46,410 bases of DNA from Kocuria sp. (GTDB taxonomy: Bacteria; Actinomycetota; Actinomycetes; Actinomycetales; Micrococcaceae), in the NCBI RefSeq assembly GCF_030538595.1, contig NZ_JAUNTS010000015.1, positions 1 to 46,410 of the forward strand. The letters are read 5' to 3'. The notes beneath the pieces were generated by a model. The model was given only the letters and a program-made list of their open reading frames with translations. It was not told where the DNA came from and searched no databases. Every line of letters starts with the position of its first letter. Position 1 is the stretch's first letter. This document shows, piece by piece, positions 9,160 to 34,347 of this stretch. The position numbers and the translations under genes were made by a program.

Positions 9160-9161
9160 GC

Positions 9162-10241: not shown

Positions 10242-10282
10242 GGGTCCTCGTCAGATCAGAGTCACGTGAAATACGGCAGAGG

Positions 10283-10316
10283 GTGGGCCGCTCCGATGTC
10301 CACCGGAGCGGCCCAC
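10283..10316 (-). terminator. GC-rich hairpin between lipoprotein and permease genes
   Basis: GTGGGCCGCTCCG pairs exactly with CGGAGCGGCCCAC around an 8-base loop. It begins 10 bases past the lipoprotein stop. With permease and ATPase genes downstream in the same direction, it probably lets through only part of the transcription, or protects the upstream mRNA, giving more binding protein than transporter. Confidence 0.75.
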
Positions 10317-10326
10317 TCCGCCCAGA

Positions 10327-11355
10327 TCACTGGTCGCCGGCCTCGGCGGGATCCTGGGCCTCCACGTCCTCACCCACAACGACGTCGGCGCGGTCGCGCA
10401 CCTCCTGCGGGATCTCAACACCCTGAGCGGCAGCAGCCTCCGGGTTGATGTAGAGCTGGAGTTCGGTTTGCTGCTCAACCGGCATGGTGGCCGGGTCCTC
10501 GCCATCGCGCAGCACGCGGATGGCCATTTCACCGGCCTGCTTGCCCAGGGCCTCGTAGTCGATGCCGTAGGTGGCAACAGCTCCGCGGGTCACGGAATCG
10601 CCCTCAGCAGCCAGGATGGGCAGCTGGTTTTCCTCCCCGTACTGGATCACGGTTTCCAGGGCGGAAACCACCACGTTGTCCGTGGGGACGTAGATGGCGT
10701 CAACATTCAGGGACTGCAAGCCCTGCTGGACCTCGGAGGAATTGGTCACCGTGGCTTCCTGGATCTCCAGGTCCAGTTCGGAGGCGGCTTCCTTGGCCAT
10801 GTCCACCTGCACCTGCGAGTTGGCCTCACCGGAGGAGTAGACAATGCCCACGGTCTGGACATTCGGGTCCAGTTCCTTGAGCAGTTCCAGCTGCTCCTTG
10901 ACGGGGTTCATGTCAGAAGTACCCGTGACATTGCCACCGGGTTCCTCCCAGGAGTCCACCAAACCGGCTTCCACGGGATCAGTTACAGCCGTGAAGATGA
11001 TGGGCTTGTCCTGGATGGCCTGGGCGGCTGCCTGCGCGGTGGGGGTGGCGATGGCCAGGACCAGGTCCTTGTTGTCATTGGCAAAGGTGCCCGCGATGTT
11101 GGAGGCGGTGGCCTGCTCACCCTGGGCATTCTGTTCATCCCACTCGACGTCAATGCCTTCTTCATCGAAGGCAGACTTGAAGCCCTCGCGGGCAGCGTCC
11201 AGGGAGGGATGGGAGACAATCTGAGTGATACCGATCTTGTAGGGATCGCCCTCTTCCCCACCGCCACCGCTTCCGCTGTCACCGCACGCGGTGAGGGCCA
11301 ATGCAGCAATGCCGGTCAACGCGGCAGCCTTGAAGATATGGGTACGTCCGGACAT
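10327..11355 (-). CDS. ABC substrate-binding lipoprotein (ABC_sub_bind family)
   Basis: A 342-residue extracytoplasmic solute-binding protein. The lipobox LTAC puts the lipidated Cys at residue 24. The mature protein starts with a flexible Gly/Ser linker and carries the PF04392 pattern: KIGITQIVSHPSLDAAREGF, then IATPTAQAA, FTAVTDPVEAGLV, NVTGTSDM, VGIVYSSGEANS, DAIYVPTDN and ATYGIDYEALGKQAG. Homologues bind tryptophan or tyrosine; others bind different small molecules. The start at 11355 has AGGAGG at 5-base spacing; an upstream frame to 11442 is open but without support. Divergent from the PPTase gene. Confidence 0.93.
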   Translation of the reverse strand: MSGRTHIFKAAALTGIAALALTACGDSGSGGGGEEGDPYKIGITQIVSHPSLDAAREGFKSAFDEEGIDVEWDEQNAQGEQATASNIAGTFANDNKDLVLAIATPTAQAAAQAIQDKPIIFTAVTDPVEAGLVDSWEEPGGNVTGTSDMNPVKEQLELLKELDPNVQTVGIVYSSGEANSQVQVDMAKEAASELDLEIQEATVTNSSEVQQGLQSLNVDAIYVPTDNVVVSALETVIQYGEENQLPILAAEGDSVTRGAVATYGIDYEALGKQAGEMAIRVLRDGEDPATMPVEQQTELQLYINPEAAAAQGVEIPQEVRDRADVVVGEDVEAQDPAEAGDQ

Positions 11356-11501
11356 GGATCCTCCTGTGTGGTGCGTGCGCACTAGCCTGTGCTGCCAGTA
11401 CGGTCCCCTGCGGGTGGTTGTGCTTCCCGCGAATGGCCTCAAGTATCCCCGGTCACACTTCCCGACGGTGAGGACCCGCAGGAGCGTGGCGAGTTAACAA
11501 A

Positions 11502-11517
11502 TGTGACCTGGGTCACG
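11502..11517. promoter_or_regulatory. Candidate CRP/GlxR-type site
   Basis: TGTGACCTGGGTCACG fits the TGTGA-N6-TCACA consensus of actinobacterial CRP/GlxR regulators except for the last base, and it contains the palindrome GTGACC-tg-GGTCAC. It lies in the divergent region between the ABC lipoprotein gene (start 11355) and the PPTase gene (start 11544), closer to the latter. Confidence 0.45.
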
Positions 11518-11543
11518 ATCAAGAGAATAGCATCATATACGAC

Positions 11544-12134
11544 ATGAATCAGAGCTCTTCTGCAAACCGGCACCTGGATGTCCATGTCCGGATGGCTCCG
11601 ATCGCGCAGCTGCACACAGCGCTTTCCGCACTGGCAAGTGAAATCACCGGACTGACAAACTTGCACCTCACCCACGCGTGCGCCTCCTGTGGAAGCTCGC
11701 AGCACGGCAGGCCCGTGGTACGCGGGGGCGCGGACGGCGTCACCGCCTCACTTCCGGGTGTGTCCCTGTCCCGGCCACGCGTGGGTGATCAGGGCGTGGT
11801 CGCCGTGTGCACCGGCGCACAGGTTGGCATCGACCTGGAGGCCACCGGTGCCGCCTCTTTTCCCGGCTTCGACTCCGTGGCCCCGCACCCGCAGGAGCAC
11901 TGCCACAACGACGACGACCGCACCCGCCTCTGGGTCCGCAAGGAAGCTCTACTCAAAGCGCACGGCACCGGGCTGGTCACCGACCCGCGCTCAGTCCACC
12001 TCAGCCCATCGGGAGCAGTGCTGGAAGGGCCTGCGGGCACGGTGATCGACGTCGATCTGCGCCCCGATTGGTGCTGCTCGGTGGCAATCACACCCGCAGT
12101 CGGCCCGGAAAGGGTCAACGTGCGGCTGCACTGA
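11544..12134 (+). CDS. 4'-phosphopantetheinyl transferase (Sfp type)
   Basis: A 196-residue PPTase that would transfer phosphopantetheine from CoA to carrier domains. Family marks: the CASCGSSQHGRP region near residues 47-58, VGIDLE (94-99, Mg-binding Asp) and LWVRKEALLKAHGTGL (129-144, catalytic Glu and CoA-binding Lys). It is somewhat shorter than Sfp. The nearest carrier domain is in the Pls-like synthetase at 13558-17490, three genes away, which makes it the likely client. No ribosome binding site is seen before the ATG at 11544, where TATACGACATG suggests a leaderless transcript; an internal Met at residue 17 is an alternative. Confidence 0.88.
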   Translation: MNQSSSANRHLDVHVRMAPIAQLHTALSALASEITGLTNLHLTHACASCGSSQHGRPVVRGGADGVTASLPGVSLSRPRVGDQGVVAVCTGAQVGIDLEATGAASFPGFDSVAPHPQEHCHNDDDRTRLWVRKEALLKAHGTGLVTDPRSVHLSPSGAVLEGPAGTVIDVDLRPDWCCSVAITPAVGPERVNVRLH

Positions 12135-12135
12135 C

Positions 12136-12172
12136 CGGGACTGTTCAGCTCCGAACGGCAGGTTCAGTCCCG
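12136..12172. terminator. Possible bidirectional terminator
   Basis: CGGGACTG (12136-12143) pairs with CAGTCCCG (12165-12172), with GAAC/GTTC able to pair inside the loop. It lies between the converging ends of the PPTase gene and the M1 peptidase gene. There is no T-run, so it is weak. Confidence 0.4.
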
Positions 12173-12184
12173 CACCAGTGCCTT

Positions 12185-13510
12185 TCAGCCCCGACCCGGC
12201 TCCGTGGAAAGCTCGGGCAATTCAGGCAGCTCCGACTGATGCAACCATGCTCGCAAAAGGTCATCCACAGCAGCGGCAGATGATCCGGCCCAGCGCAGAC
12301 AGTGGGCCTCAAAGTCGTCGGTGGTGACCGTGGAGCCGGCGTACTGACGGGTCCACGCGCGCAGGAGGTCAAAGAACGTGGCATCCCCCAACTCAGCGCG
12401 CAGGGCGTGCAGGGTCAGCGCACCGCGTTTGTAGACCCAGTCGTCGAACATGTTGCGCACGCCGGGATCAGCCAGAGTCCGGAACATGGGCGTGGAGGAC
12501 AGCCCCGCGTAGTGCTCTTCCGCGCGCTGTTGCGCAGAAGCAGACGATCCCCGATGTTCTGACCAGAGCCATTCGGCGTAGCAGGCGAATCCCTCATGCA
12601 ACCAGATGTCACTGAGCTGGCGGCTGGTCACACTGTTGCCGAACCACTGGTGGGCCAGTTCGTGGGCCACCAGCCGTTCGTTGTTCCATTCCGGAGCCAC
12701 CAGATTCCGACCGAACGTGCTCAAGCCTTGAGCCTCCAGTGGAATCTCAAGGTCGTCGTCCACGATCACGGCACGGTATTCCGCAAACGGGTAGGGACCG
12801 AACACCTCAGAGAAGAACTCCACCATGTCAGCCTGGCGTTCAAACGCGGACCCGGGACCCACATGAACGCCACGCGGATGCACCACTTCCACCGGCACGG
12901 AGGCCGGCCGCTTCTGAGCCACATAGGGACCGATCTGGACGGTGGCCAGATACGGTGCCATGGGCCGATCCATCACGTAGGTCCAGGTACGGGTGGCGCC
13001 ACTGCGGGTGGAATCCGTCAGGGTTCCGTTGGCCACCACGTGGTACTCAGGATCGGTGATGACTTGAATGCGGTAGGTGGCTTTGTTGGCGGCGTCGTTG
13101 TTGCAGGGGAACCAACCGGAGGCACCCTGCGGCTGGGAGCCCACCATGGAACCGTCCGTGAGTTCTTCCCAGCCCGCAGCCCCGTGCACTCCGGGTACGG
13201 GGCGCGGGTTTCCGGTGACCTTGAAGGTCAACAGGAATCGGCTGCCCGGGACCCGGTCCCCCACTTCCACCGTCACCCGGTGTCCGCGGTGCCGGAACTT
13301 GGCCGGGCGGCCATCCAGCAGCACTTTGCCCACGCGCAGCCCGTAAAGGTCGACGTCGATCTTAGGCGTGGGTTCCACGATCTCCACGTAGAGCTGAGCC
13401 TGCTCCTCCAACCGGTTGGATGACACCTTGTACCTGAGGTTGAGATCGTAATGAGACACCCGGTAGCGGGTGTCACCGTGGCCTCTCAGGTACGGGTCTG
13501 GGTTGGTCAT
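12185..13510 (-). CDS. M1-family zinc metallopeptidase
   Basis: A 441-residue peptidase. The zinc site is HELAHQWFGN with the third ligand in HEGF: H283, E284, H287 and E306, the exact HEXXH-(18)-E spacing of M1 aminopeptidases. The substrate-binding motif that is normally GAMEN reads LEAQGL here, as in a smaller actinobacterial subgroup. No signal peptide or membrane segment. The start at 13510 (MTNPDP) has GGAG upstream; an open frame beyond it overlaps the Pls gene and is not used. It lies 48 bases downstream of the Pls-like gene in the same direction. A role in trimming or degrading the Pls product is plausible, but ordinary peptide turnover cannot be excluded. Confidence 0.92.
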   Translation of the reverse strand: MTNPDPYLRGHGDTRYRVSHYDLNLRYKVSSNRLEEQAQLYVEIVEPTPKIDVDLYGLRVGKVLLDGRPAKFRHRGHRVTVEVGDRVPGSRFLLTFKVTGNPRPVPGVHGAAGWEELTDGSMVGSQPQGASGWFPCNNDAANKATYRIQVITDPEYHVVANGTLTDSTRSGATRTWTYVMDRPMAPYLATVQIGPYVAQKRPASVPVEVVHPRGVHVGPGSAFERQADMVEFFSEVFGPYPFAEYRAVIVDDDLEIPLEAQGLSTFGRNLVAPEWNNERLVAHELAHQWFGNSVTSRQLSDIWLHEGFACYAEWLWSEHRGSSASAQQRAEEHYAGLSSTPMFRTLADPGVRNMFDDWVYKRGALTLHALRAELGDATFFDLLRAWTRQYAGSTVTTDDFEAHCLRWAGSSAAAVDDLLRAWLHQSELPELPELSTEPGRG

Positions 13511-13557
13511 TCGGCTCCGATCGGGACAGATACAACGTGGGCTGACAGTCCGGAAGT

Positions 13558-16500
13558 CTAGTCGTCGTCCTCCACCCAGGGTCCAATGGGGTTGCCCACC
13601 CAGCGCGTTTTGTCTGGTGCGGATTCCCCGCGCATGACCAGGGAGCCTGGGCCCACGGTGGCATAACGGCCCAAGATTGCCGCCGGCAGGATCACGGAGT
13701 TGGGTCCCAACGTGGCCCCCGGCCCCAAACGCACGGTGTCCATGGCCAGCACACGGTCGTGGAACAGGTGGGTTTGCACCACGCATCCGCGGTTGATCGT
13801 GGCTGCCTCTCCCAGCTCAATCAAATCGTGTTCGGGTAACCAGTACGTTTCACTCCACACACCGCGGCCCACAGTGGCACCCATGAGTCTGAAGTAGAGG
13901 TTGAGCAGCGCCGTGCCGGGGATGAAGCGCAGCAGCCACGGTACGGCCACGGCCTCCACAAAGGCATCGGCCAATTCGCCGCGCCACACATGACTTGACC
14001 ACAGGGGGTGTTCAGAGACCTTCCACCGCCCCACCAAGGCCCATTTGGCCAGAGCTGCACCCAGCACGGCCAACAACCCGCACCCCAGCAGAACGACGCC
14101 GGACACCGCACCTGCCGCCATCAGGTTCCAGTGGGCAGCCACCGCAGCAAGCGCGGCGAAAGCCAACAGGTACAGGTAGAGGTGTGCCAGCAAGGCCAGG
14201 ATGCGCAAGGTTTCGATCAATCCGCGCATCACCCGCAGTCCCGTGGTGGGCTGGTAGGTCCGGGAGGAATCGACCTCGCCCGGGGTGCGGCGCAGTTTCT
14301 CCGGCGGGGAGCCCACCCAGGAGGAACCGGCCTTGGCCTTCTTGCGCCGCGGGGCTGCTGACAGCACCGCCACCAGCGATTCCTTGGGAACCTTACGCCC
14401 CGGAGCCGTCATCCCGGAATTGCCCACAAAGGCACCGCGGCCAATCTTGACCCGCTCGATGCGCAACCAGCCACCGCCTAATTCATAGCCGCCGATCAAG
14501 GTGTCATCGGCCAGGAAGGCTTGGGCACCCACTCGGGTCAGGCTGGGGATCATCAGCACGGTGGAGGCTTCAGCATCCCGGCCCACGTGCGCACCCAGCG
14601 CCCGAAGCCACCACGTGGTGGCCATCCCGGCGTAGAGCGGGAACAGCCAGGTCCGGGCCTCGTCCATGAGGCGCAGCGTGGTCCAGGCCTGAAGCGCCTG
14701 GCGGCTTTGGACGGGGTGTGGTCCGCCTGTGAGTCCGATGGCGCACAGGCGGACCAGCACAAGGATCATGAGGGCCAAGGCCGCGTAGCCCACCATGCCC
14801 GCCAGTGGCAGCCACACAGCGGCCGTGAGCACCGCCTGACCCAAGGTGGTTGTACCACTGACCGGTAACCACAGCACGGCCAGTCCCACCAGGGTGGCCA
14901 CCGCAGGCAGGCACGCGATCATCACCGCCGTGAGTCCGTACAACACCGTGAACACCGGACGAGACGCGGGCCGATCCCCCCAGGGACCGCGGGCATCTCC
15001 GATCGGGGCTGCAGGGCATCCGGACCAGCGCTCCTGGCTCTCCACCGTGCCAAAAACCGTGGAGCCGGGAGCCACTTCAGCACCGGCGCCAATGCGAGCG
15101 CCGGGGGTCAACGTGGAGCGAGCACCAACCCGGGCCTGCTTGCCCACCGTGATCTGACCGATGTGGACGGTGGCGCCGTCGATCCAGTGACCTTGAAGGT
15201 CCACTTCTGGTTCCACGGACGCCCCGGCCCCGAGTTTCAGCAGACCGGTCACGGGGGGCACGGCATGGAGGTCGACGTCGCGGCCCACCTGGCAGCCCAG
15301 CATCCTTGCGTACCAGCGGATCATGCCGGCTGCACCGATGGTGCCAACCCCCATTTCATCCACCCAGCGTTCAGCCAGCCACAGTCGCAGGTGGATCTTG
15401 CCGCCGCGGGGATAGCGCCCCGGACCCACCCCGGCCAGGATGCCCCGGGCTCCCCCTGCGGCCACCATCAGGCGTCCCGGTGGGGAGATCAGCAGGACCC
15501 AGCCGACCACCAACAGCCACCAGGGCACCAGGCCCACGGTTTGACCGGGCAGCGTCCAGCCCAAGAGGTCTGCCACCTTGACGCCCACGGCCAGCCAGAG
15601 CAGGAGCCGCAGACCCCCTACGGTGCGTAGCGCCAGCAGGGCCGCTGTCTGCCCGATCTGGGTTTTGGGCGGAACCGGGTTGACGTGCTCGTTCAGACGA
15701 CCCACGGGGCTGTCCGAGGCATCCAGCCACGCGGCGAAATCATGGAGCTGCGGGTGTTCGTAGACGTCAGCCACCGTGGCGTTGACGTGGCGTTCCCGCA
15801 CCCGGGCGATGATCTGAGCTGCCGTGAGGGACCCACCTCCCAGGGCAAAAAAGTCCTCCTCGGCAGTGCTCGGGCGTGAGCCCAACACGTCCTTCCAGAT
15901 CTCCCCGAGCCATGCGGCGGTCTCCCCCAGCTCCCCGGAGGCGGTCGCGCCGTCGTCGGGAAGCGGCCAGGGTAAGGCGTCACGGTCGATCTTGCCGCTG
16001 GTTCGGGTGGGGAGGTCATCCACCACGGCCAGGCGCGGCACCAGGGCGGCGGGCATGTCCGCCCGTAGTGTCTCCAGGCCGGCTGCGCGGTCGAAGGTGT
16101 CATCCACGGTCAGATAGCCCACGATCAGCGAGTTGCCGCTGGCGGTCTTGCGCACCGCTGCGGCGGCACCCACCACCCCGGGCAGTGCCAGCAGGGCGGC
16201 GTCGATCTCCCCCAGTTCAATGCGGCGACCACCCACCTTGACCTGGTCATCGGCGCGGCCTTTGAACAGCAGCCCGGCGGGATCGTTGACCACCACATCG
16301 CCTGAGCGGTACGCGCGTTCCCAGCCCAGCGTGGGCATGGGGGCGTATTTTTCGGCGTCCTTGGCCGGGTCCAGATAGCGGGCCAGTCCCACGCCGCCGA
16401 TGATGAGTTCCCCGCTTTCGCCCTCCGGGACGGGGTGCCCGTCAGCGTCCACCACCGCCAGATCCCAACCGTCCAGGGGCAGGCCGATTCGCACCGGAGG

Positions 16501-18157: not shown

Positions 18158-20419
18158 GTGAGCACTGAAAACCTGCCCTACGGCAATGACTCCACCACCG
18201 TTGGTGAGATGACCGAGACCGAGGCCACGGGCCTGCCTTCGGAGCCCATCCATGCTTCCCCGGAGGGCAAGTGCCCCGTGGCGCACGGTGGCGCACTGCC
18301 GCACCCCACCTCCGGGGACGCCAACCAGCAGTGGTGGCCCAACCGCTTGAACCTGAAGATCCTGGCCAAGGAACAGCCGGTGATCAGCCCACACGATCCG
18401 GATTTTGATTACGGCGCCGCTTTCGAGTCGCTGGATCTGGCGGAGGTCAAGGCTGCCATTGCTGAAGTGCTGACCACCTCCAAGGACTGGTGGCCCGCTG
18501 ACTTTGGCAACTACGGCCCGTTCATGATCCGTATGGCGTGGCACTCGGCCGGTACCTACCGTTCCCAGGACGGCCGCGGCGGCGCCGGTACCGGTCAGCA
18601 GCGGTTTGCTCCGCTGAACTCCTGGCCGGACAACGCCTCCCTGGACAAGGCTCGGCGTCTGCTGTGGCCGGTCAAGAAGAAGTACGGCCAGAACTTGTCC
18701 TGGGCTGACCTGATTGTGCTGACCGGCAATGTGGCTCACGAGATCATGGGCATGCCCACGTTTGGTTTCTCCGGTGGTCGCATGGACGCTTACGAACCCG
18801 AGGACGATGTTTACTGGGGTCCGGAGACCGAGTGGACCAACGGCGGTTCCGAGCGGTACAAGGGTGACCGCGATCTGGAGAACCCGCTGGCTGCCGTGGA
18901 AATGGGTCTGATCTACGTCAACCCGGAGGGCCCGGAAGGCGAACCCGATCCCATCAAGTCCGCACGGGACATCCGCGACACCTTTGGCCGCATGGGGATG
19001 AACGATGAGGAGACCGTGGCCCTGATTGCCGGTGGTCACACGTTCGGCAAGACCCACGGTGCGGCTGAAGTTCCGGACCATGTTGGTCCAGAGCCCGAGG
19101 CTGCCCCGTTGGAGCAGATGGGTCTGGGCTGGAAGTCCTCTTACGGCTCCGGTTCCGGCCGGGATGCCATCACCTCCGGCCTGGAAGTGACCTGGACCTA
19201 CCACCCCACCCGCTGGGACAACGAGTTCTTCCACATCCTCTACGCCTACGAGTGGGAGCTGTTCCACTCCCCCGCCGGTGCCCAGCAGTGGCGTCCGGTC
19301 AACGGTGGCGGTTCGGACATGGTTCCGGAGGCCGACGGCAACGGGCGGCGTGAGCCGCGCATGCTGACCTCCGACTTGGCGCTGCGTTTTGATCCTGCCT
19401 ACGATGCCGTTTCTCGGCGGTTCAAGGACGATTTTGCGGCGTTCCAGGATGCGTACTCCCGTGCCTGGTTCAAGCTGACGCACCGTGACATGGGACCGTT
19501 GGCTCGCCACTTGGGCGCCGAGGTTCCCTCCGAGGAACTGGTGTGGATGGATCCGATTCCGGCCGCACCGTCCGTGCCGGGTGCTTCTGAGGTGTCCGCT
19601 GTGAAGGAGGCCGTGGCTGGTGCCGGGCTGTCCGTGACCGATGTGGTCAAGACTGCCTGGGCTGCTGCTTCTACCTTCCGTCATTCTGATTTCCGGGGTG
19701 GCGCCAACGGTGGGCGTATTCGCCTGGAACCGCAGCGGTCCTGGGAGGTCAACGAGCCTGCCGTGACCGGGCCGGTGATTTCTGCGCTGGAGTCCATTGC
19801 CGCTGATCACGGGGTTTCCTTTGCGGACACCTTGGTGATCGCGGGCAACTGGGCCGTGGAGAAGGCTGCTGCCGACGGCGGTTTTGAGGTGTCCGTGCCG
19901 TTTACCGGCGGCCGTGGCGATGCCACCCAGGAGCAGACCGATGTTGAGTCCTTTGGTTACCTGGAGCCCAAGGTGGATGGTTTCCGCAACTACGATCCGC
20001 GTGGGAACAAGGAGTTCCCAGCGGAGTTCGCGCTGATTGATCGGGCCAACCTGTTGGGTCTCTCCGCTCCGGAGATGACCGTACTGGTGGCAGGCCTGCG
20101 TGTGTTGGGGGCTGTGTACGGCTCTTCTGCCGATGGTGTGTTCACCGACCGGGTGGGTGTGCTGTCCAACGACTTCCTGGTGGCGTTGACGGACATCGAC
20201 ACGTCCTGGGAGAAGGTGGCTGAGGGCCAGTACCGCGGTGTGACTGCCGATGGTGTTGAGCTGACCGGTACCCGCAACGACCTGGTGTTCGGCTCCAACT
20301 CGGAGCTGCGCACCGTTGCCGAGGTCTACGCGGCTGATGACGCGACCGAGAAGTTCGTGCACGACTTTGTTGCCGCATGGGCCAAGGTCATGAACGCGGA
20401 CCGGTTCGACGTGAAGTGA
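18158..20419 (+). CDS. katG: Catalase-peroxidase KatG
   Basis: A 753-residue bifunctional heme enzyme that removes hydrogen peroxide by catalase and peroxidase activity in the cytoplasm. Distal triad R125, W128 and H129 in [13 protein letters not shown]; proximal heme ligand H294 in [10 protein letters not shown]. The Met-Tyr-Trp adduct partners are visible as W128, the Tyr in LIYVNPEGP and the Met in [11 protein letters not shown]. The DAITSG motif (S315 in M. tuberculosis numbering) is intact. The second, degenerate peroxidase half is complete. The GTG start at 18158 has AAAGGA at good spacing. Coupled to furA upstream; terminator at 20453-20496. Confidence 0.97.
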
Positions 20420-20452
20420 GCTGGTTGATGGCCTGGTAAAGGCTGACGACAG

Positions 20453-20496
20453 CGGCCCCGCTCCTCACTTGCTGTTTCAGGTGAGGACCGGGGCCG
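20453..20496. terminator. Bidirectional terminator, katG/vapC
   Basis: CGGCCCCG-ct-CCTCAC pairs with GTGAGG-ac-CGGGGCCG around a 12-base loop, with one 2-base internal mismatch. It sits 34 bases past katG and 7 bases from the end of the oppositely oriented vapC. Confidence 0.8.
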
Positions 20497-20502
20497 TTGG
20501 TC

Positions 20503-20886
20503 TTAGATGGTCATGACCGTTTCTGGGGCAGTTTTGCCGAGCCTGGCGTCCAGGGTGAGGAGCTTGCAGCCGAGTCGACGAGCCAGAGCAACGTACATGG
20601 CGTCATAAGCAGACGTGTTGTGACGGAGTTCCCAGACATCGTTGAGGAGATCTGCCGCAGGAAGCTCATGAATCCCCAACTGCCTGAATATTTGCAGGGC
20701 TCTACGTGCTTCTTGGCCCGTGATGAGATCGCTCAAGTTCCAGCGGCGCAAGACAGAGACAACCTCGACCGTCAGGTGCGGCGGGGCCACCAGGTGTTCC
20801 TGAGCGATGACGCCAGCCATCTGGGCACCTCGATCAGTTCTCAGGAGAAGCTCGGCAATTGCAGACGCATCAACAACGAGTGTCAC
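20503..20886 (-). CDS. vapC: VapC-family PIN-domain toxin
   Basis: A 127-residue PIN-domain ribonuclease. Acidic catalytic residues are in place: D6 in LVVDASAIAELLL, the Glu in TVEVVSVLRR, the Asp in SAYDAMYVALA and LLTLDARLGK. Such toxins cut tRNA or rRNA and stop growth when the antitoxin is lost. The ATG overlaps the antitoxin stop by 4 bases (ATGA), so the two are co-translated. The pair sits at the edge of the BREX island and could help keep it. Confidence 0.92.
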   Translation of the reverse strand: MTLVVDASAIAELLLRTDRGAQMAGVIAQEHLVAPPHLTVEVVSVLRRWNLSDLITGQEARRALQIFRQLGIHELPAADLLNDVWELRHNTSAYDAMYVALARRLGCKLLTLDARLGKTAPETVMTI

Positions 20887-21107
20887 CGGCTTGCCCGCTC
20901 AGCGGCCAGCATGTCCTCGGCGGCAGGCAGGCTCTTGCGAGACTGAGCGGCAAGTTGGCCCAGGAGTTCGGCCCGGCTCGGAGCTTGGGCCAGACGCTCC
21001 AGCTCAGCCAGGAGGTAGTCGCTTAGCGAACGGCCCTCGAGTGCAGCCTTGGCCTTGAGTGCCCGGCTAGTGGAGTCTGAGACGTTTCGCACTTGGATGG
21101 TTGTCAT
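20883..21107 (-). CDS. vapB: VapB/FitA-like antitoxin
   Basis: A 74-residue antitoxin with an N-terminal ribbon-helix-helix segment (MTTIQVRNVSDSTSRALKAK, then the second helix ending in SLSDYLLAELERLA) and a C-terminal tail that would fill the VapC active site. It would bind and repress its own promoter. No Shine-Dalgarno sequence precedes the ATG, so a short or absent leader is likely. Confidence 0.9.
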   Translation of the reverse strand: MTTIQVRNVSDSTSRALKAKAALEGRSLSDYLLAELERLAQAPSRAELLGQLAAQSRKSLPAAEDMLAAERASR

Positions 21108-21125
21108 ACATTAAGCATACTGAAC

Positions 21126-21142
21126 ATGCACACGACATGCAT
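21126..21142. promoter_or_regulatory. Candidate VapBC operator
   Basis: ATGCA and TGCAT form an inverted repeat over a 7-base spacer 19 bases upstream of vapB. A second, overlapping pair (GCAT at 21115, ATGC at 21126) lies nearer the gene. The size and position suit a ribbon-helix-helix dimer, but no family consensus was checked. Confidence 0.35.
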
Positions 21143-21749
21143 CACACGCGACCGCAGAGAATCGGCGGACGCCACCGCGTCTGGTTAAACCACAGGTGCC
21201 ACGCAAACGACCTCGTCACCATGGGTTTGGGCGGTTTCAGGGGGTGAGTGCAACTGCATCTCCCAGCTAGCTCCTTCCAACATACCTGCACCGATTGGTT
21301 CGATGGTCTCGAGAGTTAGGTCATTGCCGTTGGATGTGGGAAAATCCTGAGCCTGACATAAGCCCAATCCGGTGCACCTCATTCCCACGCCACGCTCGGT
21401 CCGGCCTTGTTCGAAGCGCACAGCACCCGACAAGGTGGATAAGTCGGCGTATTTGGGTCATAGAATGAGGAGTATGCACTGCGGAGGCGCTTTGGCTGCT
21501 AGCAGACGGCATTTACACCGACTATGGCGCGCCGAAGTCACTATCTGGACCTGAATGAGAGCGACGACCTCGACCAGCCCCTAGGTTGGTCGTGCTTTAG
21601 CGTTCGAAGCGAGCATGAGCGACGATGGTGAGATGGCGAGGCGGCGCAGCACGAGAGAACCCCGGATGGAGGTTGGAATGTCGATGGGTCCTACTGGAAT
21701 CTGGCCAGCACGAGGGTTCTGCCTGACATCTATTGGCGAGCGGTGATCC
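21143..21749. other. Gene-free leader region upstream of BREX
   Basis: About 600 bases between vapBC and brxA with no gene I can support. A minus-strand frame (21185-21433) and short plus-strand frames lack family resemblance. TAGAAT at 21461-21466 is a possible -10 without a good -35. A short hairpin CGACCA/TGGTCG lies at 21571-21592. No WYL-type regulator such as BrxR is present. The BREX promoter should lie here. Confidence 0.5.
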
Positions 21750-22532
21750 GTGCCTGTTGGGAAAGAGGAGCTAGTGATAACGAGTGCTGGAAGTGCTGAG
21801 AACAACTTCGCCATGGGCACCCTGCGCACCACCGCGAGCCACACCATCGGCATTCCGCACCTGGTCGAGCTGCTGCGGGAAATGCCGTTTGATGCATCCG
21901 CAGAGCAATACCGCGATGCGGTCGTTGAAGGCAACGTTCTCGGTCGGCCGACTCAGGCTGGTCGGCAGCGGTCGTTCCGCCACCTACGCGAGTTGTACTT
22001 TCTCGACCCAGGCCGTGCCGAGTTCGCGGCGCTGAGGCGCTTCTGGGACATCGACCCCAGCTCACGACCACTCCTCGCGGGCCTACTAGCTTTCACTCGC
22101 GACCAGATACTTCGAGCGTCGTTCGCCGCAATCGTCGACCTCCCGGCGGGGTCGAGCGTCACGTCAGCTGACCTCACCGCTGCGGTCACAGCCGAGTTGG
22201 GTGAAGAGATGTCGGAGTCGACGCTCGGAAAGACTGGCCGCAACACGGGTGCCTCCTAGACTCAGACGGGGCATCTTGTCGGACGATCCAAGAAGGTGCG
22301 CATTGCGGTAGAGGCCCGCCCCGCAGCGATCGCCTACTCGGCTTATCTTGGTCATCTTGCTGGCGGCCGCGGCCTGAGAGTCCTCGACAACCCGTGGTCT
22401 CAGATCCTCGGGATCACCCCCGGCCGTTCATTGGAGAAGCTGCGTGATGCTCACACACAGGGGGTCCTCGACCTCCTGGTGGCAGGCAGCGTGGTCGATG
22501 TGTCGTTCCCAGCCCTAGGTGGTGAGGCATGA
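21750..22532 (+). pseudogene. brxA: brxA (DUF1819) interrupted by an in-frame TAG
   Basis: BrxA is the small winged-helix DNA-binding protein that begins type I BREX operons. The first part (residues 1-169) holds the family-like HLVELLREMPFDASAEQYRD and NVLGRPTQAGRQRSFRHLRE. It stops at TAG (22257-22259) just before TQTGHLVGRSKKVRIAVEAR, which continues in the same frame to a normal TGA at 22530-22532, overlapping brxB by 4 bases. A single substitution therefore explains the break; TGG (Trp) to TAG is the likeliest because a Ser-Trp fits there. No ribosome binding site supports restarting at the GTG at 22296. The start is GTG 21750, or GTG 21774 close behind GAGGAG. Without the stop the product would be 260 residues, normal for the family. 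Confidence 0.85.
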
Positions 22533-23086
22533 GTCGCGTCTCAGACCTGGTCGATGCATACAAAGCCGAGCTAGCTCTCTCCTGGAAGGACGACGTTTCC
22601 GGTGGCGAGCGTGTGTGGATGCTCGTCTACCCGCCGGACCTAGAGCGCCAGCTTCGGCACGCTTTGCCGAGCCTGGAGCTGGCGACGATTCAATCGGGGC
22701 ACGGCTGGCACGTCGTGGATGTCACCGATGACTTCGGGCACTGGGTGTCTTCGCACCGCCACGCGGAGGCCTTCTTCGAGGAGCCGAGTGACCTCACGCA
22801 GTCGATCCTTGACCAATTCGAGACGGCGCTGGGGTCCCGCATCCGTGAAGCCCTCGAAGCGGCTCCCGCGAGTGCCGTTGTGGCGCTTGTCGGCATCGGG
22901 GCGATCTTTCCGTTCTTGCGGGCGTCGAGCGTGATCAAGTCAGTTGACTCTGCGGTGACAGGTCGACTTCTCGTACTCTTCCCCGGGCTTCACGAGCCGG
23001 AGACTCATTCATTCCGTTTGCTCGACGCACGCGATGGGTTCAACTACCGCGCTCGCGTCATCGACCCGCAGAAGGACCTCGTGTGA
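22529..23086 (+). CDS. brxB: BrxB (DUF1788), BREX component
   Basis: A 185-residue BrxB protein, needed for both modification and exclusion in studied type I BREX systems; its biochemical role is not established. Family marks: VWMLVYPPDLERQLRHALPS, DVTDDFGHWVSSH, VVALVGIGAIFPFLRASSVI and a final LLVLFPGLHEPETHSFRLLD. The ATG overlaps the end of the brxA frame by 4 bases, and its own stop overlaps the brxC start by 4 bases, so its translation may suffer from the premature stop in brxA. Confidence 0.93.
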   Translation: MSRVSDLVDAYKAELALSWKDDVSGGERVWMLVYPPDLERQLRHALPSLELATIQSGHGWHVVDVTDDFGHWVSSHRHAEAFFEEPSDLTQSILDQFETALGSRIREALEAAPASAVVALVGIGAIFPFLRASSVIKSVDSAVTGRLLVLFPGLHEPETHSFRLLDARDGFNYRARVIDPQKDLV

Positions 23087-26000
23087 CTACCAACAACAAT
23101 CTCTTCGTCCGACCTCCACTCAGCTTCGAGATTCCGAACGACGGCGTGACCAACGTTGACCGGCCCGAGGACTCCAACCAATGGGACGTACTCAAGTACG
23201 AGTTGGAGAGTTTCGTCTGCGAGGGCGAGTACGAACACGGCCTCCAGCGCATTCTCGATTCGTACACCAGCCACCGCAACCGGACGACCCAGCCAGCGGT
23301 GTGGGTTTCGGGCTTCTACGGCAGCGGTAAGTCGCATCTCGTTCGTGTGCTCCAGCATCTGTGGGGTGACACGAAGTTCCCGAACGGTGCCACCGCGCGC
23401 GGCCTCACGGACATCCCGCAGGGTGTCCAGGATCAGTTGACAGAGCTGACGACGCTCGGCCGACGCGATGGTGCTGCGCCCTGGGCCGCCGCGGGTGCAC
23501 TTGACCGCAGCGGCGAGACGTTGAACTCTGTGTTCCTTTCCATCGTTCTGGGCGCGGCAGGGCTGCCCACACGCATCGCGCCCGCCCAAGTTGCGCTGTG
23601 GCTGGCGACCAACGGGCACCTTGATGCCGTGCGTGACCACGTCACGGCCAACGGCGGTGACCTCATCCAAGAGTTGGGCGAGTACAACCTCAGCACGCTG
23701 CTCGCGAACGCCATACTCGCCACCGACCCGGAGTTCGCTGCATCGGCCAAGGACGTCCGTGCGGCGCTGCGCAACCAGTTCCCGCCAGACACCCGCTCGT
23801 TCTCCACGGATGAGACGATTGCGCTGCTCAAAAAGATCCTTGATTACGTCGGCGGGGGGCAGACCCCGCCATCGCTGATCGTCCTCGACGAGGTACAGCA
23901 GTACATCAGTAGCGACGGCGGCCGGGCCATGGAGGTGCAGAACCTCGTCGAGTCCGTCTCACGGGAACTCGATGGGCACGTGCTCCTCGTGGCGACCGGT
24001 CAGCAGGAACTGACGGCAGACTCAACGCTCCAGAAGATTCAGGACCGTTTCACCGTCAAGGTTGTGCTCAAGAACCAGGATGTCGACGCCGTCGTCCGGC
24101 GTGTACTGCTGAGCAAGGAGCCCGCGGCGAAGCCCGTTCTCGCCAGCACTCTAGCGTCGGTAGCCGGGCCGGTTTCTCGGCAGCTCATCGGCAGCAAGAT
24201 TCAGCACACTGCCGAGGATGACAAGGACCTCGACGAGGACTACCCACTGCTCCCAGTACGCCGCCGTTTCTGGGCGAGCGTCCTTCGCCAGGCCGACGCC
24301 GGCCGCGCAGGTCAACTGCGCTCCCAGCTCCGCATCGTGCATGAGGCGAATCGGAAGGTCGCATCCGATTCAGTGGGAACCGTCGTCGGCGCCGACTTCC
24401 TGTATGCGCAGAAGAACGAGGACCTGAATGGCGCAGGGTTCCTCCTCAAGGAGACGCAGACGCTTATCCACGAAGAGGCACAGAAGGACGCTCTCCGCGG
24501 CCGCGTCCTCGGCCTCATCCACCTCATCGGCCTGCTCCCAACGTCCGGTCACGGTGACATCGGTGTGCGCGCGACGGCGGAACACCTCGTCGACCTCCTC
24601 GTCGAAGACCTCGCACATGACGGCGACCTGCTTCGACAGAAGATGCCCACCGTGCTCGACGCACTCTCCGACGAGGGCGTTCTCCAACGAGACGGTGAGG
24701 AGTATCGACTTCAGACCAAGGCCGGCCGCGAGTGGGACGAATCCCTTCGCAGGCACCACGCGCAAGTCACCGACAGTGAAGTGAGCACTGAGCGCAATTC
24801 GCTGCTGCTCGCGGAAGTCAATCGGGCGCTCCCCACAACAATCCAGCAAGGTCGCGCCAAGGAGTCCCGCAAAATCGCCCTGCACGCCGACGCCTCGTTG
24901 CCGCCAGAGTCTGAGGCAATCCCGGTGTGGCTCCGCTCTGAGTGGGACGAAGGCATCACCGCAAAGCAGTTTGACGAGGCGGCCCGAAGCCTCGGCGTCG
25001 AATCGCCGATCGTTCTCGTACACCTTCCTCGTATCCAGGCACCCGCGTTCGTCGCAGCAGTCCGCAACAAGATCGCGGCGCAGCGCGTGATCGACCAGCA
25101 GGGGATCCCGCAGGACGACGAAGGCAAGCAGGCGCGAAGCGCAATGCAGACCCGTCTCAACCGAGCAACGGACCAGGTCAACGCTCACGTCCGTGACGTG
25201 ATTTCGAAGGCGTCCGTCCTCCTTGGAGGCGGGACTTCGCCAAGCGGAGTCACGCTGCGTGAGAGGATCGAAGCGGGCGCCCAGGATGCCGCCACGCGTC
25301 TGTTCCCGCGCTTCTCGGAGGCCGACGACAGTCGCTGGCCGCAGGTGATCGCCCGGGTCCGGAACGGGTCGGCCGCCGATGCTCTCAAAGCCGTCCAGTA
25401 TGACGCAGACCCTGAGCAACATCGGGTGGTCAAGGAAGTGCTGAGCCACATCGGTGCGGCCGGCACGTCTGCGAGTGACGTCGAGAAGGCTGTCACCTCA
25501 AAGCCGCTCGGCTGGCCCAGGGATGCGCTTATGGCATCGCTTGGAGTGCTCCTCGATACAGGGGTGATCCGCGCAACGATCAACGGAAGCGACGCGACAA
25601 CGGCCGACGTGCTCAAACAGACTCGCCTCGGCAACGTGCAGTTCCGCCGCGAGATTACGGTTCTTAAGCCCGCCGAGAAGATTCAGGCACGTCAGGTGCT
25701 TAGCACTCTCGGGTTCCCGACCGACAACGATGGGCTCATCTCAGCGGTCGAGCAGGCCGTGAAGTCGCTCTTTCAGCGCGCGAAGGACGTGAGCGGACCC
25801 GCGCCACTGCCCGACATAAGCGTGCCGAGCAACATCCAGATCATCGTCTCCAACTCTGGCAACGACCGAGTGCATGCCCTGCTGAGCGCGAAGGACGACC
25901 TCACGAGCTTCAGCAACGAGCTCGCGGAGTACGAGTGGCGGCGCAGGAGCCGGCTGCCTTCGCTGGAACTGGCTCGTTCGCTCGCCGCGTCTTCCAGGGG

Positions 26001-26540: not shown

Positions 26541-29500
26541 ATGACCACATCTACAACCACTGTGCTCAACTCAGAGCAACGCCGTTTCCTCGATACCCAG
26601 ACGCAACGCGCCCGTGAGGCGGCACAGCGCGCAGCTGAGGACGCACTGCGGGCACTCGCGATTGGTGAGCCGAGTCGACCCGCTTATCTGAATGACGAAC
26701 AGAACACGCTTCGCCTGGCGCTTCGAGATAAGGCTCGGCAACTTGGGGACGACACCGCACATGCGGGTGCGCCGCTCACCAACTTGATTCATGACGTGGC
26801 CTACGAACAGTGGCACCGGTTGCTGTTTGCGCGCTTCCTGGAGGTGAACGGCCTCCTGCGGCACCCCGAGTTTCGCGACATCCCGCTGTCGCTCGACGAC
26901 TGCAGCGACCTCGCACCCGACCTTGGTGAGCCGGACGCGTGGGCGGTCGCCGCACAGTTCGCGTCCGAGATTCTGCCCGGCGTCTTCCGTCTCACCGACC
27001 CTGCGGTCCAGGTGCGATTCCCCGCCGAGCATCGCAACGTCCTGGAACGGCTCCTGCTGGCGATCCCTGCCGAAGTGTTCACAACTGAGGACGCACTCGG
27101 GTGGGTGTATCAGTTCTGGCAGACGGCGGAAAAAAAGCGAGTGAACGACTCGGGGGTCAAAATCGGCGGAGCCGACCTCTCACCCGTCACGCAATTGTTC
27201 ACCGAGAACTACATGGTGCGCTTCCTGCTGGAGAACTCCCTCGGCGCATGGTGGGCTGCGCGTCACCCCGACTCCCCGCTGATTGAAGGCTGGGAGTATC
27301 TGCGACGCAGCGACGATGGCACGCTTGCGGCGGGTTCGTTCAACGAGTGGCCTGATCGCGCCGCGGACGTGACGGTTATGGACCCCTGCTGCGGCTCGGG
27401 TCACTTCCTGGTTGCCATGTTCGGGATGCTGTGGCGCATGCGCGCCGAGGAGGAGGGGCTGGCCACTGCCAAGGCGCAAGATGCGGTCCTGCGGGACAAC
27501 CTCCACGGTCTCGAACTCGACCCACGCTGCACGCAGATCGCTACCTTCAACGTCGCCCTCGAAGCTTGGAAGCAGGGCGGATTCCGGGACTTGCCCGCTC
27601 CCCAGATCGCCTGCTCTGGCGTTCCCGTGCGTGCGTCGCGCATGGACTGGGAAAGCCTTGCGAGAGACGACGGAGAACTGCGAAAGGTGATGGGCGCGCT
27701 ACACGCCCTGTTCCGCAATGCGGACACCCTAGGGTCGCTTATCGACCCACGCCCAGATGGAATGGGAGACGGTCTCTTCTCGAAAGACACGAGTGTCGGA
27801 ATCGGGTGGAGACAGGTGGGCGATGTGCTCCGAGTCGCCGTTCAGAACGAGCGTCCAGCAAGTCCGGTCCTGGGCGACGCGGTCGATGACGTCGTCGCGG
27901 CTGCTGGTCTGCTAGGGCGCAGCTACACACTGATCGCGACGAATGTTCCGTATCTGGGTTCACAGTTGCAGTCAGAGAACCTCCGGGACCACATCCAGTG
28001 GGAGTTCCCCCAGGCCGGTGGCGAACTCGGGGCCGCTTTCCTTCTCCGATGGTCAGCCACTTCGGGGGCATCGAAGCACATCGCCGCAGTCGTCCCGGGA
28101 CAGCTGGGGTTTCTTCGGAGCTTTGGAGAGTTCAGGAAGGATCTACTTGAGCATGCTGCCATGAGGATGTACTGCCCGCTTGGTCCACGTGCCTTCCGAG
28201 AGATCGGCGGGGAGGTGGTGCAGCCCGCGCTCATTGGCATTGGTGCACCAGCCGCCTCCAAAAGCGAGGTGCGTGCGTTGAGTGTGACTGCCGTGGAAGA
28301 AGACTCCCTTGAAGGGAAAGCTCGGCAGCTCCGCGATGGCCCGTTCGCCCTCATCGATCCGGAGTCTTGGCGTGCAAACAAGGGGATCGCGTTCAGCGCC
28401 ACTGTGCAGAACTTCACCACAAGGCTGTCATCGGTTTCAACGGGCGCGGAAGGTCTATCTACCGGCGACAACGGCCGCTTTGTCCGGCATTTCTGGGAGA
28501 TCAACTTCGATGGGCAGCGTTGGGCCGGGATGCAAGGCGCACCAACTGCGACCGCCCCGTACGCGGGACTTGAGTACGTCGTCCGCTGGGACCGTGGAGC
28601 CGGGGCGCTGGTCGAATCTGACGGAGCGAGAATCCAGGGACTCAATCACTTGAACCAACGCGGGGTAATTATCGGTCGTATGAGCACCTTCCGGTGCGCA
28701 ATATATCTCGGGGGCCTCTTCGACAAGAGTTGCGTCATTGCAGTTCCTAGGCGCCAGGACGATCTCGCCGCTATCTGGGCATTTGCTGAGTCTGGGGAGC
28801 TTGAGCGTGCGGTACGCGCGATTGACACGAAAGTTGGCGCATCAACTGCAACTGTCCTAAATGCTGCGTTTGACGTAGACAAATGGCGCAAGGCTGTCGA
28901 CGGTGCGCACATTCCGTTGCCCGAGGTCGTAAATCCATCGCAGTGGCTATTCTCGGGAAGCTTGCCGGGGTCGGCGTACCCGCTTCAGGTGGGCGTGGCG
29001 CGACTACTCGGTTTCCGGTGGCGAGACCAGCTACCTGACGCTCTCGATCAACTGGTCGACGCGGATGGCATAGCGGCGCTTACACCACTGCCAGGGGAGC
29101 CCGATCTCGCGACTCGTCTCAGACAACTGCTCGCGACTGCCTACGGCGCAGGGTGGTCCAGTGGTCTGGAACGCCAACTCGTCACCGAGGCGGGTGGCAA
29201 GAACGGGCGGCTCGACGACTGGCTCCGAGACTTCTTCTTCAACCAGCACGTCCGAGTATTCGACAACCGGCCGTTCCTGTGGCACATCTGGGATGGCCGC
29301 AAGGACGGGTTCGCGGTGATCGTTAACTATCACAAGCTCGACCGACGAACGCTGGAGAAGTTGACCTTCACGTCGCTTGGAGCCTGGATTGAGCGGCAGA
29401 AGCACGAGGCCCGCGCCAAGCGAGCGGGGGCCGATGCGCGCCTTGCCGCGGCTGAGGAGCTCCAGCGGCGCCTCAAGCTCATCCTCGAAGGCGCACCTCC

Positions 29501-29747
29501 CTACGACATCTACGTGCGTTGGAAAGCCATGTCCGAGCAGCCGATCGGCTGGGAACCTGACCTTGACGACGGCGTGCGCCTCAACATCCGGCCTTTCGTA
29601 GAGGCCGGAGCGCTCCGGTCGAAGGTTAACGTGCACTGGAAGAAGGATCGCGGCAAGAACCCCGATGGTACAGAGCGCCACAACGACCTTCATCCAACAT
29701 TGGAAGAACGTCGTAGAGCTCGACGCGAGGCGGAGGCCGCTCAATGA
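26541..29747 (+). CDS. pglX: PglX/BrxX adenine-specific DNA methyltransferase
   Basis: A 1068-residue N6-adenine methyltransferase, the modification enzyme of BREX and the part that sets the recognition site. SAM motif I is MDPCCGSGHFL at about 280-290; HGLELDPRC follows. The catalytic motif reads ATNVPYLG at 466-473, NVPY instead of the usual NPPY; I recall such variants in BREX PglX, but this was not checked. The region after residue ~610 (28380-28960) looks lower in GC and is probably the specificity domain, which varies between strains. The C-terminal third is well conserved (FFNQHVRVFDNRPFLWHIWD). The ATG is 2 bases past the brxC stop; the end overlaps pglZ by 4 bases. No repeat tract for phase switching was seen here. 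Confidence 0.95.
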   Translation: MTTSTTTVLNSEQRRFLDTQTQRAREAAQRAAEDALRALAIGEPSRPAYLNDEQNTLRLALRDKARQLGDDTAHAGAPLTNLIHDVAYEQWHRLLFARFLEVNGLLRHPEFRDIPLSLDDCSDLAPDLGEPDAWAVAAQFASEILPGVFRLTDPAVQVRFPAEHRNVLERLLLAIPAEVFTTEDALGWVYQFWQTAEKKRVNDSGVKIGGADLSPVTQLFTENYMVRFLLENSLGAWWAARHPDSPLIEGWEYLRRSDDGTLAAGSFNEWPDRAADVTVMDPCCGSGHFLVAMFGMLWRMRAEEEGLATAKAQDAVLRDNLHGLELDPRCTQIATFNVALEAWKQGGFRDLPAPQIACSGVPVRASRMDWESLARDDGELRKVMGALHALFRNADTLGSLIDPRPDGMGDGLFSKDTSVGIGWRQVGDVLRVAVQNERPASPVLGDAVDDVVAAAGLLGRSYTLIATNVPYLGSQLQSENLRDHIQWEFPQAGGELGAAFLLRWSATSGASKHIAAVVPGQLGFLRSFGEFRKDLLEHAAMRMYCPLGPRAFREIGGEVVQPALIGIGAPAASKSEVRALSVTAVEEDSLEGKARQLRDGPFALIDPESWRANKGIAFSATVQNFTTRLSSVSTGAEGLSTGDNGRFVRHFWEINFDGQRWAGMQGAPTATAPYAGLEYVVRWDRGAGALVESDGARIQGLNHLNQRGVIIGRMSTFRCAIYLGGLFDKSCVIAVPRRQDDLAAIWAFAESGELERAVRAIDTKVGASTATVLNAAFDVDKWRKAVDGAHIPLPEVVNPSQWLFSGSLPGSAYPLQVGVARLLGFRWRDQLPDALDQLVDADGIAALTPLPGEPDLATRLRQLLATAYGAGWSSGLERQLVTEAGGKNGRLDDWLRDFFFNQHVRVFDNRPFLWHIWDGRKDGFAVIVNYHKLDRRTLEKLTFTSLGAWIERQKHEARAKRAGADARLAAAEELQRRLKLILEGAPPYDIYVRWKAMSEQPIGWEPDLDDGVRLNIRPFVEAGALRSKVNVHWKKDRGKNPDGTERHNDLHPTLEERRRARREAEAAQ

Positions 29748-32077
29748 CCCTCGTCCGTGCCGTCGTCGCCAAGGCCCTGCGCGACGCGGCTGCCTTCAAC
29801 CCGGGCGCCGCATCGGAGCCCGCCGCCGTGCTGTGGGCCGATCCCGAGCGCGCATGGGAACCAGTGATCCGCAGCCTTCAGGAGGCGGTGCCCATCCTCG
29901 TTCTCGGTGAGTACGACCCCGCAGCCGCGCGTGGTCCTGCACTCTGGCTCCGTGCCGTCCTTGCCTCACCAGACGCCATAGAACTCCCGGCGCATCTCGC
30001 CGAGCGCGGTGATCGCAACCCTTGGGTGATCTATTTACCCGGTATCAGCAGAAGCTCCGTCGCCGAGGCATCGACTCTCGACGATTCACTTTCACCGCTC
30101 GCCGAAGTGGCCGTCCGCTCAAATTGGTGGCCGTCCGCTCATCACCAGAGGCCATGGACACCCCACTCGTTCCTCGCCTCAAAGCAGGGCGCAGGCCTCG
30201 ACATCCCTGGGGACGTTGCTACCAGGTCTGCCCTTACGCATGTCTTGGGCAAGCTCCTCTTCGAGAAGGTTGACGACCTCAAGCGCATGGGGAGACTCGA
30301 CTCGTCGCGCCTGCACCGCCTCGTGCTTGATGACTCAGTTCGCACCCTCCTCGAATGGATGAATGATCCGAACACAGTACAGGCCTCGATTGAAGGCGCG
30401 CGATGGCAAGCCTTCATTGCCTCCTGCAAGTCGGTCTACGGATTCACCCCAGAGAAGGATGGTGCGCTCAGCGCGGCTAGCAAGCTCGGAGCACGTCAGG
30501 GCGATTGGAACGCCGTATGGCAGCGGTTTGTGGAAAGTCCCGAACGGTATCCGAATATCCCTGGTCTTCTAGACCAATCACGCCCGTCTATTGTGCCGCT
30601 CTTTGAAGACGCAGAATCTCATGCCGACTCCTGGCCGTCGTGGAATCGCGACCAGGAGGAGGCGCTCCGGACCGAGCTCCGTGCGCTGGAGACTCACCCG
30701 AATCCTGGCGCGCGCGTAAAGCAACTCGCTGCCACACACTCGGCGCGTGAAGACAGCGTCTGGGCCACTCTCGGCCAGGCACCGCTCGCGCGTGCGGTTG
30801 GGTACCTCGCCGAGCTATCGAATCGGGCATCGGCCGCAGCGCTCGCGACAGACCTGAAAACCCAGGTCGACTGGTATGGCAACGAAGGGCATGTGATCGA
30901 TGACCTCGCCTTGCGGGCTATTGCTGCCGCCAAGAGCGCACAAGACCGTGCCGCAGTCACCACTGCGCTTGGCTCGCTCTATGATCCATGGGTCGACGAG
31001 CGCGCGCGGACGTTCCAGCAAGCATCGGTGAAGGACTACGGCGGTCAGGCTGGTCTGGACATCTCAGCAGGTACCGTCGTCGTCTACGTTGACGCGCTGC
31101 GCTTCGATCTCGCTTCAAGAGTGACGCGACATCTCTCGCCGTTCGCCGTTGTCGTCGAGCCAAGATTGGCCGCATTCCCGAGTGTGACACCGACCGGCCA
31201 GCCGGCGGTCGCCCCCATAGCGATCACCGCTGGCGGAGGAACCGCCTTCGACGCGGCCGACAGCCGAGGGCGCTCTCTCAAGGGGCCCATTCTGCGATCA
31301 GCGCTCGCGGAAGCGAACGTGCAGTTCCTCGAATGGGACGCCGCCGACGTTGGTGACGCGCGCGGCAAGGCGTGGACACAAACGAACTCGATCGACTCGC
31401 TCGGGCACTCCCACGGACATGCACTGGCCGATCTCGTTGACCAGCAACTCGACCTTATTGCTGAGCGGGTTCGTGGGCTGCTCGAAGCAGGATGGCGCAA
31501 AGTCGTCATCGTCACTGATCACGGCTTCCTTTTGCCTGGCCAGCCGGCGAAGAAGGTCGTGTTGCCGCTTCAGGTGACGGAAGGTGACGCGGCACGCAAG
31601 CCGCGCGTGGCGCGGTTGAAGGCCGCAGCGGCGCGCCCGGACTTTCCCATCCTGCCGTGGACGTGGGACCTGTCTGTCGACATGGTGAGTGCTCCCGGAG
31701 CTACAGCGTTCGAGGCAGGTCGCCTGTACGAGCACGGTGGACTGAGTCTTCAGGAGTGTGTGATTCCTGTCGTCACTGTGACACACGGCGACTCCGCGGG
31801 GTCACCGGCCCGGATCGAGACCGTCCGATGGACGGGACAGCGGTGTCGCATCGACTACGGCCCCGCCGAAGCCGATATCGTCGGTGAGATTCGGCTCAGC
31901 CCGGCAGACGCATCGAGCGTTGTGGGTGGCCCGAAGGCTCCCACAGAACCAGGCGAAGTCAAGGTACTCGTTGATGAAGAACAAGCCCCCGAGGGCGCCA
32001 CTGCGTGGGTCGTCCTTCTGGACGCGAACGGAACGGTTGTAGCACAAGAACGAACAACGGTGGGAGGCGCCGCATGA
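29744..32077 (+). CDS. pglZ: PglZ/BrxZ alkaline-phosphatase-superfamily protein
   Basis: A 777-residue PglZ, the hallmark BREX protein present in all subtypes. Metal-site motifs of the alkaline phosphatase fold are visible: VVVYVDALRFDLASR with D450, and VVIVTDHGFLLPG with D592 and H593. It is required for BREX function; a nuclease or phosphodiesterase activity has been proposed. The start overlaps pglX and the end overlaps brxL (ATGA). A 15-base exact direct repeat (30107-30121 and 30127-30141) lies in the coding region, read in two frames. Confidence 0.95.
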   Translation: MTLVRAVVAKALRDAAAFNPGAASEPAAVLWADPERAWEPVIRSLQEAVPILVLGEYDPAAARGPALWLRAVLASPDAIELPAHLAERGDRNPWVIYLPGISRSSVAEASTLDDSLSPLAEVAVRSNWWPSAHHQRPWTPHSFLASKQGAGLDIPGDVATRSALTHVLGKLLFEKVDDLKRMGRLDSSRLHRLVLDDSVRTLLEWMNDPNTVQASIEGARWQAFIASCKSVYGFTPEKDGALSAASKLGARQGDWNAVWQRFVESPERYPNIPGLLDQSRPSIVPLFEDAESHADSWPSWNRDQEEALRTELRALETHPNPGARVKQLAATHSAREDSVWATLGQAPLARAVGYLAELSNRASAAALATDLKTQVDWYGNEGHVIDDLALRAIAAAKSAQDRAAVTTALGSLYDPWVDERARTFQQASVKDYGGQAGLDISAGTVVVYVDALRFDLASRVTRHLSPFAVVVEPRLAAFPSVTPTGQPAVAPIAITAGGGTAFDAADSRGRSLKGPILRSALAEANVQFLEWDAADVGDARGKAWTQTNSIDSLGHSHGHALADLVDQQLDLIAERVRGLLEAGWRKVVIVTDHGFLLPGQPAKKVVLPLQVTEGDAARKPRVARLKAAAARPDFPILPWTWDLSVDMVSAPGATAFEAGRLYEHGGLSLQECVIPVVTVTHGDSAGSPARIETVRWTGQRCRIDYGPAEADIVGEIRLSPADASSVVGGPKAPTEPGEVKVLVDEEQAPEGATAWVVLLDANGTVVAQERTTVGGAA

Positions 32078-34131: not shown

Positions 34132-34248
34132 CTTGAGAAGTAACTCGACGAAGTTCAAGCCAGGCACACCCTCACCAGGTTTTTCGTGTTGATATGACGG
34201 TGTTCAGCGGCGGGACGTGGGAATACATGTCTGAATCAACGTCGAAAT

Positions 34249-34264: not shown

Positions 34265-34347
34265 CTGTCCGGGGTATGTCCACCGGGTCTGCTGCACGGG
34301 TAGGTGACCTCTGAACTGCTTAGACCATGTGCGGCTGGGCTGGAAGG

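Follow-up and report, generated by a model that had tools for sequence, protein, structure and literature searches.

Contig NZ_JAUNTS010000015.1 of a Kocuria sp. draft genome (3.14 Mb in 27 contigs, 99.99% complete) is 98,482 bases long, and its first 46,410 bases, the whole stretch analysed here and referred to as the window, carry a bacteriophage exclusion (BREX) operon in which brxA is interrupted by an in-frame TAG. We favour, with moderate confidence, the reading that this is a recent nonsense allele which inactivates BrxA in a type I BREX operon of a Kocuria-group actinomycete. The two pieces of the gene and the stop are placed as follows.

21750..22259, + strand: brxA 5′ piece, 169 codons, ending in the TAG; the true start is possibly further in, up to about 21815
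22257..22259, + strand: TAG interrupting brxA in frame; a sense codon in 13 of 13 relatives
22260..22532, + strand: brxA 3′ piece, in frame with the 5′ piece, 90 codons followed by the natural TGA

The TAG is the sole stop within the frame from 21750 to 22532, with 169 codons ahead of it and 90 after, compared with eight and seven stops in the alternative frames of the same strand. Both pieces match the PADLOC BrxA model PDLC02450 (259 positions), the 5′ piece over positions 10–162 (E 3.5e-36) and the 3′ piece over 164–249 (E 5e-21), and together they fit the BrxA family profile over its length. One model position is absent between the pieces, indicating that the TAG codon occupies that place. 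An earlier note on this DNA had proposed that a single substitution splits brxA in frame, and both parts of that proposal agree with the analysis: the frame is open elsewhere, the two pieces share it, and one profile position is taken by the stop. The 4-base overlap of the brxA stop with the brxB start that the note described as normal is present (ATGA at 22529–22532) and recurs in nine of nine named relatives. Of the possible starts in the list of open reading frames (ORFs), that at 21750 lies furthest upstream; starts vary among relatives, and alignment is good from about 21816. Six BREX genes matched by PADLOC models lie on one strand in the order A-B-C-X-Z-L, with neighbours overlapping or a few bases apart and brxA in two pieces. 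On this gene content the locus is an operon of type I BREX in which brxA is interrupted, bearing out the note's assignment to type I with six core genes; where such an operon is expected to encode BrxA as one uninterrupted protein, the TAG at 22257–22259 breaks it here. The five remaining BREX frames are open, in keeping with the note, to which five of six core genes looked intact. No second brxA was found within the limits of the searches.

Thirteen related loci were compared with the window. Nine came from a brxB-based search of genome contigs, in which selection was blind to the state of brxA, and all nine have a sense codon for the same residue at the place of the stop; four more came from genomes of a class-wide search in which brxA itself was the query, so that a lost brxA would have been missed. 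brxA was uninterrupted in 13/13, none of them ended at the point of the TAG, and the column of the stop was invariant in the alignment (residue 161 in the numbering of L003, a Kocuria coralli record), in which the rows for L055, L056 and L057 were end-trimmed. Three loci (L002, L056 and L057) stop short of the operon's end; the remainder of L002 (the rest of pglX, pglZ and brxL) is on contig L047, and the operons of L056 and L057 were checked only in part. An apparent stop in the brxA of L045 was rejected, as it lies upstream of the gene's own start and the same gene in L008 is a single 251-amino-acid frame. Within the genus, brxB of this kind was present in 2 of 27 genomes searched, our own included; the other genus locus (L011, genome G004) is contained letter for letter in the K. 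coralli record, which puts the host in one genus with K. coralli under the genome grouping applied.

Wider surveys gave a similar picture. In a phylum search the BrxA model matched 14/396 genomes, several of them weakly or partially, and the sole internal stop was that of the window, a TGA inside the brxA of G791 proving on reading to be the natural end of the gene. In the class search 10/394 genomes matched, five of them being weak hits (E 8e-5 to 8e-4). One of these weak hits, G231 (E 4.6e-4), has a TGA and is, besides the window, the only match with an apparent stop. The surveys and the 13 loci overlap: G551, in both surveys, is L054, and G623, G768 and G449 of the class survey are L055, L056 and L057. 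An order-wide search with the BrxB model matched 13/396 genomes, the 12 besides our own being weak (E 1e-6 to 4e-4). A plasmid protein search returned seven records, each below 60% identity, and a plasmid DNA search gave no match. brxA-like DNA was found in 399/5426 E. coli genomes and covered at least 80% of the gene in 345.

To place the stop in the protein, we used a model of the intact BrxA of L003, which puts it close to where the recognition helix of the second helix-turn-helix (HTH) ends; the wing of that HTH and a C-terminal winged-helix module come after it. The BrxA/SspB double-HTH fold expected of the BrxA family was found, and residues 179–251 of the model match winged-helix domains with a middling Z of about 7. 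The match to 7zge reaches residue 214, and so the border of the extra C-terminal module is not sharp. Residue-level mapping onto 7zge is weak, because hhalign of A1 against E. coli BrxA gave no meaningful match and a PDB sequence search with intact BrxA gave chance matches only. A placement of the stop at the conserved W123 of the BrxA structure paper (PMC9240713) was dropped, since the E. coli BrxA alignment and the 7zge letters, compared by eye, put it later, near 7zge residue 156.

The part of brxA behind the stop has no significant extra decay, which is why we consider the stop young, in agreement with the earlier claim that the break looks recent. At columns invariant in other taxa the window has changed at 3/51 behind the stop and 4/80 before it, compared with 4/127 in brxB, 32/744 in brxC, 25/403 in pglZ and 14/576 in brxL (behind the stop versus the rest, Fisher p 0.47); in pglX, computed apart, the window has 12/434 and nine other taxa 5–20 of 427–442. 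In the remaining genes, too, the window ranks with the taxa that change faster, and its own branch is about 0.45 substitutions per site at fourfold sites. Neutral drift of the 3′ piece for the last 15% of that branch would leave three or fewer changes with P 0.03, and for the last 25% with P 0.002. If translation ends at the TAG, the stop would thus have arisen within roughly the last 15% of the window's own branch, a rough bound and not a date, as the relatives are all distant (0.87–1.12 per fourfold site) and the calculation takes the 3′ piece to have been released from constraint at the origin of the stop.

Under the favoured reading of a recent inactivating allele, ribosomes would end at the TAG and produce a truncated BrxA with the first HTH and most of the second; lacking the wing of the second HTH and the C-terminal winged-helix module, this protein would be inactive or unstable. 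By analogy with published deletions in other species, BREX methylation and restriction would then be lost or weakened. In Salmonella, deletion of brxA eliminated defence and reduced methylation (PMC11341690), and in Acinetobacter methylation was lost and restriction significantly reduced (PMC9122589); Acinetobacter BrxA also binds BrxC, lowering its DNA binding (PMC13326643). Loss of BREX activity is on this comparison the likelier outcome here, and the system is probably off. More speculatively, brxB expression may be reduced as well, with translation terminating about 270 bases ahead of that gene. By eye there is a purine-rich AGGTGG six bases ahead of the brxB ATG, given which brxB may be independent of translational coupling; a consensus scan of 20400–23200 detected neither promoter-like nor terminator-like sites. 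Provided that the stop is real and BrxB is produced, a stop allele next to an open brxB would argue against a strict pair here.

Several observations weigh against this reading. In E. coli, deletion of brxA left both protection and modification unaffected (PMC6326788), and a premature stop in Acinetobacter brxR had little effect on either BREX protein levels or restriction (PMC9122589), an argument against expecting strong polarity in general. The 3/51 changes behind the stop, though not significant, rank first by share among the 11 taxa compared for this piece (the others have 0–2 of 45–50). The TAG may be a sequence error, and absent decay behind the stop is equally expected from an error or from continued expression of the 3′ piece. 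We regard it as unlikely, but deserving of attention, that brxA is intact in the strain and the TAG a wrong base call: the sequence is a draft of 27 contigs, no significant decay follows the stop, and none of the relatives examined has a stop like it. Against such an error, the five other BREX frames and katG are open on the same contig. Substitution errors are, moreover, uncommon in assembled contigs.

A real stop with BREX still active, BrxA being dispensable as in E. coli HS or the truncated protein being enough, we hold to be distinctly unlikely. The E. coli deletion fits this account, as do the other BREX genes of the window, which are open with shares of changes in the range of other taxa; the allele is, however, too young for their state to reveal continued function, BrxA is required in Salmonella and Acinetobacter, and an uninterrupted brxA in 13/13 relatives means that the lineage has kept the gene. 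The earlier note's suggestion that certain type I systems depend less on brxA stands for E. coli and fails for Salmonella and Acinetobacter, with no general rule. There is a very slight probability that the 3′ part is still made, by read-through or by restart, to give a working split BrxA. Beyond the stop, conservation of the frame is much like that of the operon's other parts, and there are in-frame start-like codons, the first being the GTG at 22296, but no clear ribosome-binding site was seen by eye before 22296. Nor does the genome offer an obvious suppressor: among its 45 Rfam tRNA matches ARAGORN read anticodons in 30 loci, none of them CTA, the other 15 falling within reach of a pattern search only where their T loop reads GTTCRA. 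That pattern (amber anticodon loop plus T loop) occurred at 10 places, compared with 99 for a reversed control, and the one place that overlaps a tRNA match is an Arg-TCT tRNA. TAG also serves as the terminal stop in 2 of 17 other window genes checked. We found no sign of amber recoding in the sequence, and the suggestion that the stop is suppressed is unsupported.

The operon has the same six genes (brxA-brxB-brxC-pglX-pglZ-brxL), in the same order and on a single strand, as the type I BREX of E. coli HS (PMC6326788). It differs in the in-frame stop of brxA, and the BrxA of intact actinobacterial relatives is about 251 amino acids in length, compared with 200, with the extra C-terminal winged-helix module. 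A tripartite BrxA (two HTH plus a C-terminal winged HTH) has been described for a subset of type I systems (PMC12839542); the L003 model likewise has a C-terminal winged-helix-like stretch, whereas in the window this module and the preceding wing lie behind the stop. The mutant StySA BREX of Salmonella laboratory strains (PMC9009780) is similar in that all genes are present with point changes, including an early stop for which the authors inferred polarity on the following gene; there the altered genes are brxC and pglZ, here it is brxA. No report of this brxA allele was found among the titles and abstracts that searches of the open-licence PubMed Central literature on BREX brought up, and a Kocuria paper (PMC10740426) describes no complete BREX system in its strains.

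All 13 relatives examined have uninterrupted copies, and the TAG here is most likely an ordinary single nonsense allele, or else an error, in a known system. A real stop would provide a natural test of why BrxA is needed in some BREX systems only, and the methylation state of the isolate would bear on the need for BrxA in this actinobacterial subgroup. That this is a natural type I BREX working with a BrxA cut after the second recognition helix, or with a two-piece BrxA, we consider highly unlikely; such a system, if real, would allow the parts played by the individual BrxA modules in methylation and in restriction to be told apart. The case is of special interest only if the isolate methylates and restricts despite the stop, and is otherwise one further defence gene switched off by point mutation.

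The remaining genes of the operon are as follows.

22529..23086, + strand: brxB, 185 amino acids; PDLC02469, E 6.8e-52; Pfam PF08747
23083..26538, + strand: brxC, 1151 amino acids; PDLC02489, E 0; Walker A GFYGSGKS at residue 77
26541..29747, + strand: pglX methyltransferase, 1068 amino acids; PDLC02528, E 0; PCCGSG at residue 282
29744..32077, + strand: pglZ, 777 amino acids; PDLC02566, E 3.1e-206; Pfam PF08665
32005..34131, + strand: brxL; PDLC02506, E 5.8e-279 from residue 29; Pfam PF13337 and PF20442

The ORF call for brxL probably starts too far upstream, with the real start near the end of pglZ; in L048, L053 and L055 the brxL-matching frame has a stop within its first residues. Of the catalytic motifs of PglX, PCCGSG is present and the expected NPP[YF] is NVPY (in the column aligned with residue 468 of L046). 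NVPY is shared by the window and L050, 2/10 aligned actinobacterial PglX sequences, the remaining eight having NPPF or NPPY, and is possibly a tolerated variant.

Frame breaks in other BREX genes were observed in two of the 13 related loci, such that broken BREX genes are not rare among them, and these breaks may be draft errors. In L053 (Ornithinimicrobium sp. CNJ-824, 4502–13473) brxC and the beginning of pglZ are affected; in L055 (G623, a more distant type I BREX, 2759–13786) the breaks are in brxB and pglX, and the brxL match covers only 1–514 of 708.

A chromosomal location is suggested by the presence in the window of genes for Der, cytidylate kinase, pyruvate carboxylase and tRNA-Pro. 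Immediately upstream of the operon (20503–21107, − strand) a PIN-domain gene (PF01850) stands beside a FitA-like ribbon-helix-helix gene (PF22513) in a toxin-antitoxin-like pair. Behind brxL is a 325-amino-acid open frame (34204–35181, − strand) with no Pfam or PADLOC match, followed by an element at 35499–36794 that contains a Mutator-family transposase gene (35595–36788) and has 27-base inverted repeats (89% complementary) at its borders; it lies between brxL and the tRNA-Pro gene (36860–36934, − strand), possibly an insertion hot spot. Further away, a 992-amino-acid helicase-like protein (2166–5144, − strand) with AAA_11/AAA_12 and a C-terminal DUF2726 matches PADLOC models in part, MkoC and MkoA best, and is possibly the product of another defence gene. 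Two long antiparallel frames overlap at 36954–40796 (+ strand) and 37134–40589 (− strand), of which the minus frame has pyruvate-carboxylase-type domains and the plus frame has no Pfam or PADLOC match.
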